DNA of 64,000 bases from the NCBI RefSeq assembly GCF_000378345.1, contig NZ_KB899546.1, positions 313,523 to 377,522 of the forward strand. The letters are read 5' to 3'. The first letter of the stretch is position 1. Each line of letters starts with the position of its first letter. The notes under the pieces were generated by a model. It was not told the origin of the DNA, made no database searches, and saw nothing but the letters and a program-made list of their open reading frames with translations. Made by a program: the position numbers and the translations under genes. The stretch is from Hirschia maritima DSM 19733. Lineage in GTDB: Bacteria; Pseudomonadota; Alphaproteobacteria; Caulobacterales; Hyphomonadaceae. This document shows positions 62,488 through 64,000 of the stretch, one piece after another.

Positions 62488-62600
62488 TAAATGGAAAACG
62501 AGATATAGAATGCTACATTCCGCAGGATATGGTTGACGTATTGTAACGAATTATTACTAAGGTAAACAACTTACATTTTTCTTGTATGGAGATCCCCAAT

Positions 62601-63413
62601 ATGGCGGACTGGAACTTTCCCAAAGGCGAGCTAATGGCAGGCAAGAAAGGCCTAGTCATGGGTGTTGCAAACCAGAACTCTATTGCTTGGGGTATTGCCC
62701 AGCAATTGGCAGCTCAAGGCGCTGAAATGGCTTTCACATATCAAGGTGAAGCGCTTGAACGCCGCGTGCGTCCGCTTATCGAGTCTATCGGAATGGATAC
62801 AATGATATCCGCTGATGTGACGAATGATGATGAGATGGATGCAGCTTTTGCTACCCTCAAAGATAAATATGGTAAGCTGGACTTCGTTGTTCACGCCATT
62901 GCTTTTGCGGGAAAAGATGAACTCAAAGGTTCGATGGTTCACAACACGACTCGTGAGGGTTTTGCGCGTGCCATGGATATCTCTGTCTTCTCATTCATTG
63001 ATGTATGTCGCCGTGCGTCAGACATGATGGAAGAGGGTGGGTCTATTGTGAACCTAACTTATCTTGGTTCTGAACGTGTTATTCCTTCTTATAATGTCAT
63101 GGGTGTTGCTAAGGCTGGACTTGAAGCAGCGACACGTTACGCAGCCCGTGATTTGGGTAAGCAGGGTGTGCGTGTGAATGCTATTTCAGCTGGCCCAATG
63201 CGCACATTGGCGTTGATGGGCATTAAAGGATCAAAAGGGTTGATGTCAGCTGGTAAAGAAATGTCTTTGCTTGGTGAAGACACTAAAATGGAAGGTGTGG
63301 CAGGTTCAGCGCTTTATCTTCTTTCTCCGATTGGTCAGTCTATTACGGGAGAAGTGTTGCACGTTGATGCTGGTTTCCATGTTGTAGGTGTTCCTGAGCC
63401 ATCTGAAGGTTAA
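62601..63413 (+). CDS. fabI: Enoyl-[acyl-carrier-protein] reductase FabI
   Basis: NADH-dependent enoyl-ACP reductase, last step of each fatty-acid elongation cycle and target of triclosan and related inhibitors. Cofactor region GLVMGVANQNSIAWGIAQ. Catalytic residues Y154, Y164 and K171 lie in NLTYLGSERVIPSYNVMGVAKAG, the FabI Tyr-x6-Lys arrangement. The frame is open from ATG 62586, but GGAGA at 62588-62592 makes ATG 62601 the start (270 residues). No other fab gene is adjacent; the next gene begins 5 nt later and encodes a metallo-beta-lactamase. Confidence 0.96.
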   Translation: MADWNFPKGELMAGKKGLVMGVANQNSIAWGIAQQLAAQGAEMAFTYQGEALERRVRPLIESIGMDTMISADVTNDDEMDAAFATLKDKYGKLDFVVHAIAFAGKDELKGSMVHNTTREGFARAMDISVFSFIDVCRRASDMMEEGGSIVNLTYLGSERVIPSYNVMGVAKAGLEAATRYAARDLGKQGVRVNAISAGPMRTLALMGIKGSKGLMSAGKEMSLLGEDTKMEGVAGSALYLLSPIGQSITGEVLHVDAGFHVVGVPEPSEG

Positions 63414-63418
63414 TAACA

Positions 63419-64000
63419 ATGCAAATTACCTCGATCGGAATATTGATTATATTTACATCGATGTTCCTTTCGGGGTGCGCGCATCAAAAAGTCTCTACAA
63501 CGCAGAACAAAAGTGATGCAGAAGTAAAAGAACCTCGTAAAACATCCCCAGATTTAAAACCCGTTGAAATCAAAGAGCTAGGAGACGGTGTATGGATTCA
63601 CACATCCTATAAGATTGTGATGCCATGGGGAAATGTTCTTACAAATGGCCTTATCATTGAGCGAGGAAACCACACTGTATTGATTGATACGGCGTGGAAT
63701 GATGAACAAACAGCCGAGATATTAGATTGGGCCGAAATTACTCTTAAGAAACCTGTTCAAGCGTCCATCCATACTCATGCTCACAGTGATAAAATGGGTG
63801 GAATGAAAGCACTGCATTCTAGAGGCGTTGTAACTTATGCCTCAAAGCTCACGAATAAATTGGCGTTAGAGCGCGGCTTGGATCAAGCTCAGAGCCAGTT
63901 GGACTTGTCTGAAATTGGTGATCAAATTGAATGGAATGGGCTCAGTGTATTGTATCCGGGGGGAGGTCATTCAGAGGACAATATTGTCGTAAATGATTTT
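63419..64000 (+). CDS. Subclass B1 metallo-beta-lactamase, lipoprotein type (3' end cut off by window edge)
   Basis: Predicted periplasmic zinc hydrolase of the B1 class. 194 residues are visible with no stop. The signal peptide ends at FLSGC (lipobox, C20), so the enzyme is probably lipid-anchored, as in NDM. After a 30-residue linker comes the B1 fold: H120-A-H122-S-D124 (the HxHxD of Zn1/Zn2) followed by KMGG, and H184 in GGGHSEDNIVV. The Zn2 Cys and last His lie outside the window. Its ATG is 5 nt after the fabI stop, with AAGG inside fabI as ribosome site, so it is likely co-transcribed with fabI. Substrate range cannot be read from sequence. Confidence 0.9.
   Translation, partial: MQITSIGILIIFTSMFLSGCAHQKVSTTQNKSDAEVKEPRKTSPDLKPVEIKELGDGVWIHTSYKIVMPWGNVLTNGLIIERGNHTVLIDTAWNDEQTAEILDWAEITLKKPVQASIHTHAHSDKMGGMKALHSRGVVTYASKLTNKLALERGLDQAQSQLDLSEIGDQIEWNGLSVLYPGGGHSEDNIVVNDF

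Follow-up and report, generated by a model that had tools for sequence, protein, structure and literature searches.

A chromosomal HBA-type metallo-beta-lactamase gene of subclass B1 directly behind fabI in Hirschia

The locus at the end of the window, the whole stretch of 64,000 nucleotides analysed here (positions 313523-377522 of the third contig of a 3.34 Mb genome in 10 contigs), raises the question of what kind of metallo-beta-lactamase gene, termed bla below, starts directly behind the lipid gene fabI, how old this arrangement is, and whether it is connected with clinical enzymes such as NDM. An initial annotation, made from the letters of the window, had described a chromosomal, lipid-anchored subclass B1 enzyme and placed it among the candidate ancestors of the clinical ones. 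The chromosomal B1 gene, its zinc site, its lipobox and its adjacency to fabI were all recovered in the present analysis, whereas the clinical ancestry was not. Taken as a whole, it is highly probable that bla is an intrinsic B1 gene orthologous to that of the HBA enzyme of Hirschia baltica, coding for an envelope lipoprotein that would hydrolyze beta-lactams, lying distal to fabI and in an old linkage with it. The features of the locus are listed in Table 1.

Table 1. Coordinates of the features at the fabI-bla locus and of the Vat-like genes (window positions unless a locus is given).
Feature	Position	Strand	Remarks
fabI, enoyl-ACP reductase, 275 aa as listed	62586..63413	+	Pfam adh_short_C2; 95% identity to H. 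baltica copy
SD-like GAAGG in last fabI codons	63405..63409	+	Read directly; 9 nt ahead of bla ATG
bla (HBA-type), subclass B1 metallo-beta-lactamase, first 194 codons	63419..64000	+	NF033088 and PDB 6v54 matches
Complete bla, including part past window	L002:6942-7748 (to window position 64225)	+	268 aa
Signal peptide, lipobox FLSG-C20, predicted SPII cleavage before Cys20	63419..63478	+	Cys20 invariant in alignment A2
H-A-H-S-D motif: Zn1 His116 and His118, Zn2 Asp120 (BBL)	63776..63790	+	Invariant, alignment A1
Zn1 ligand His196 in PGGGHSEDN	63968..63970	+	Invariant column H184
Vat-like gene, window strain	L002:10702-11427		About 3 kb past window end
Vat-like gene, H. baltica	L015:6815-7471		17 nt behind lactamase

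Zinc site, family and signal peptide of the bla product

The reading frame of bla begins with the ATG at 63419 and is still open at 64000, the window edge. Reading of the full gene in the parent contig placed its end, stop included, at 64225, resulting in a product of 268 aa. Its zinc ligands were assigned in an alignment with NDM-1, VIM-1, IMP-1, and VAM-1 (alignment A1), where His116, His118, and His196 of the Zn1 site correspond to H120, H122, and H184 of the product, and Asp120, Cys221, and His263 of the Zn2 site to D124, C203, and H245, each of them invariant. The active-site motifs HAHSDKMGG and GGGHSEDNIVV, named in the initial annotation, were both read in the frame. Cys221 (FGGCMIRPG) and His263 (VPSHGKP) are encoded beyond the window end; the Zn2 cysteine and the terminal histidine, which the annotation had expected in the extension, were thus found there as FGGC and VPSHG, and the B1 reading stood. 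All six B1 ligands are present (HAHSD, GGGH, GGC, SHG).

The product scored 248.7 bits against the B1 equivalog model NCBIfam NF033088 (cutoff 200, E = 4.6e-74), which, together with the complete zinc site and placement within B1 in the tree, confirms the subclass first proposed. The top clinical match by HMM was the FIM model, with 211.2 bits, under its cutoff of 590; the NDM model yielded 182.8 bits, under its cutoff of 580. Among solved structures, the best match was PDB 6v54 (371.6 bits, E = 2.3e-110), with 74% identity over 218 mature residues, and the chain of this entry matches the H. baltica protein at 217/218 positions. HBA is the named B1 enzyme of H. baltica (PMC10740994). Over its full length the bla product is 66% identical to HBA, and the two are sisters in a tree of 59 proteins with support of 100/99. 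Because HBA is the closest sequence and occupies the same locus behind fabI, bla is judged from sequence to be its ortholog, an intrinsic chromosomal gene of subclass B1. The HBA family is already known and crystallised, and bla is an ordinary further enzyme of this type, by which the family gains a second well-defined species. The gene is consistent with purifying selection; dN against H. baltica is about 0.3, and dS (NG86) is near saturation, hence no firm dN/dS is obtained.

The proposed lipobox FLSGC was found in the sequence, and its Cys is conserved in kin, as judged from alignment A2, which includes NDM-1. The basic n-region is absent, the first seven residues MQITSIG containing neither Lys nor Arg. 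Typical lipoprotein signals carry such residues in the n-region; HBA of H. baltica carries one at position 2 (Arg2), and an Arg is also present in this region in each of the two Henriciella proteins described below. Lipidation of the bla product is therefore less sure than that of the H. baltica protein. The initial annotation had also named the lipid anchor in its argument for clinical ancestry, but such signals are common among environmental B1 relatives. Chromosomal B1 enzymes with lipoboxes are scattered across related marine Alphaproteobacteria. The product would most likely be exported via Sec and may be held in the envelope by a lipid anchor at Cys20. There, it would bind two zinc ions, in a three-His site and an Asp-Cys-His site, and probably open the beta-lactam ring in the periplasm.

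The fabI junction and its distribution in the Hyphomonadaceae

The fabI product matches Pfam adh_short_C2, 'Enoyl-(ACP) reductase', with E 2.9e-84; the conserved start of the protein (MADWNF) probably lies at 62601. The fabI stop TAA is located at 63411-63413 with the bla ATG 5 nt further, so that reading of the junction bears out the spacing given initially. Regarding the ribosome site claimed inside fabI, a GAAGG stretch does lie there, but it is less special than was implied: GAGGA-type fabI tails (Glu-Glu/Glu-Asp codons) also occur in most Hyphomonadaceae that lack bla. Because these non-carriers have an equivalent tail, the SD-like stretch is pre-existing, with no special coupling to bla. 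No terminator was found between fabI and bla, and the promoter/terminator scan did not rise above shuffles. Co-transcription of the two genes is plausible, given the 5-nt gap and a junction where no terminator was detected. Here, bla would be the distal gene of the fabI transcript, probably constitutive, with translation initiated from the SD-like stretch already in the fabI C-terminus. Despite its adjacency to fabI, bla may also have its own promoter.

In a survey of 105 Hyphomonadaceae genomes, 102 of which had a detectable fabI, B1 genes were carried by five, comprising three Hirschia (the window strain, H. baltica, and Hirschia sp. SP140) and two Henriciella (Henriciella aquimarina and Henriciella pelagia). 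The B1 gene lies directly downstream of fabI on the same strand in all five carriers, with gaps of 5, 5, 20, 6, and 5 nt. By comparison, B1 genes from other families of the order had no fabI inside 1.5 kb. FabI of H. baltica and SP140 is 95% and 89% identical to the window copy, and the lactamases are 66% and 52% identical, indicating that the linkage outlasted large divergence. The arrangement is, to judge from these sequences, old in Hirschia and some Henriciella, and looks to have been lost or never acquired in the remaining Hyphomonadaceae. In open-licence papers, no report of fabI beside an MBL, nor of a Henriciella lactamase locus, was found; the linkage is real and appears to be unreported. 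The home locus of the HBA family, directly behind fabI, is thereby fixed for two genera, and home loci are what tracing of B1 escape from chromosomes requires.

Unrelated genes start 0-8 nt behind fabI in several non-carrier Hyphomonadaceae (G019, G010, G004, G016, and G172; loci L093, L097, L100, L101, and L103). Most simply, the 3' end of fabI may offer a ready-made site for the transcription and translation of a new gene. In three Rhodobacterales (L119, L123, and L164) fabI was also noticed within 6 kb of a B1 gene, and these were rejected as the same arrangement on the grounds that fabI is convergent there, about 1.2 kb downstream, with two genes between in L119. The proximity is probably coincidental.

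Two Hirschia species also have, downstream of the lactamase, a gene of the Vat-like family (streptogramin A O-acetyltransferases). It reaches 256 bits where the cutoff is 300, so its function as a Vat enzyme is not certain. Elsewhere in the genome, two weak matches to the class-A-type beta-lactamase fold (PF13354) are located at G000:C1:696399-696839 and G000:C2:611505-611945.

Phylogeny, mobility and alternative explanations

The initial annotation held that B1 enzymes are usually mobile or restricted to a few lineages, which understates their distribution, as 34 out of 348 genomes surveyed in the order encode a protein above the B1 cutoff. The scores leave a clear gap, with true B1 proteins at 194 bits or more and the remainder at 88 or less. 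B1 genes on proteobacterial chromosomes are also well covered in the literature (PMC5637372). For bla itself, GC (0.43) and GC3 (0.40) are near the values for the genes of the window, and no obvious mobile-element gene was seen among the surrounding ORFs, which were inspected by eye and partly with Pfam. A search of plasmid DNA with bla gave zero matches, every plasmid protein match to its product was below 60% identity, and viral contigs contained no relatives. It is not alarming, in that a close relative is absent from all plasmids in the searched collection.

In a contig search the single protein found no relatives, and an alignment query did. Two Arenicella (Gammaproteobacteria) MAGs (L109 and L110) contain lactamases that nest in the Hirschia clade and are situated away from fabI, 8 nt behind a peptidase-like gene in both. 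Because both contigs have identical neighbours, a binning error is unlikely. The lactamase of the first MAG has no lipobox, and in the second the pattern match LATAC falls within the hydrophobic stretch; judging from sequence, the signal peptides of both appear ordinary. The five Hyphomonadaceae genes and the two from Arenicella form one clade with support of 98/95. Among alternative topologies compared by the AU test, the Hyphomonadaceae without Arenicella were rejected (p = 0.01), as were the three Hirschia genes alone (p = 3e-4), and the three Hirschia genes with Arenicella were not rejected (p = 0.50). These results fit a single transfer into Arenicella, with a Hirschia-like donor.

As an alternative to one old arrangement, a mobile lactamase gene may have been inserted recently and independently behind fabI, as a hot spot for new genes. 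For this speak the patchy carriage (5/105), the unrelated genes behind fabI elsewhere in the family, and the failure of the three Hirschia genes alone to form a clade. Such insertions are nevertheless unlikely in view of the supported seven-gene clade, the compatibility of a clade of Hirschia with Arenicella, and surroundings that show no obvious mobile element. Given that clade and the p of 0.50, one old fabI linkage and one outward transfer suffice. The fuller proposal, in which an old heritable fabI-bla unit provides a constitutive, fabI-driven lactamase that escaped once, without fabI, to Arenicella and lost its lipobox, is possible and put forward tentatively. If true, the Arenicella case would show in nature how an intrinsic B1 enzyme departs its home locus.

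An enzyme with a different task would also suit an intrinsic chromosomal gene of marine bacteria that is tied to a housekeeping lipid gene and patchily carried. The natural substrate of this B1-fold hydrolase might then be a metabolite of the cell envelope or a piece of peptidoglycan, for instance, and hydrolysis of beta-lactams would be no more than a side activity. This is quite improbable, given the tree position within B1 proper, next to FIM-1 and NDM-1, the Arg shared with FIM-1 at position 224, together with Asn233, and the downstream Vat-like acetyltransferase in two Hirschia, which looks like a resistance neighbourhood. Furthermore, the majority of environmental B1 genes tested in E. 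coli were active (PMC5637372). From its sequence, bla is more probably a beta-lactam hydrolase with a putative role in resistance. As to direct ancestry or close kinship with mobile NDM enzymes, suggested initially and encouraged by the HAHxDKMGG motif and the lipobox, NDM-1 is placed inside a clade of Erythrobacteraceae and Sphingomonadaceae with support of 100/100, a clade of NDM with Hirschia was rejected (AU p = 1.9e-5), and identity to NDM-1 is only 38%. On this sampling the kinship is refuted and has hardly any probability left, and one candidate is struck from the list of NDM ancestors.

Comparison with known enzymes

HBA, the closest known enzyme, is likewise from Hirschia, has identical zinc ligands and an equal lipobox position, and is encoded 5 nt behind fabI; its structures comprise PDB 6v54 and four further entries. 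The two loci differ further downstream, where a TonB receptor gene intervenes in the window strain ahead of the Vat-like gene that follows the H. baltica lactamase closely. FIM-1, an acquired enzyme of Pseudomonas aeruginosa, shares the subclass and the IRP motif after Cys221, but belongs to its own clade with Lujinxingia and one MAG sequence, and bla falls below the FIM cutoff. ElBla2 and other B1 enzymes of Erythrobacteraceae are also chromosomal and marine alphaproteobacterial (PMC5770381), but form a separate clade nearer NDM without fabI linkage. NDM-1, similar in subclass, metal-binding motif and lipobox, differs in nesting with these Erythrobacteraceae enzymes.
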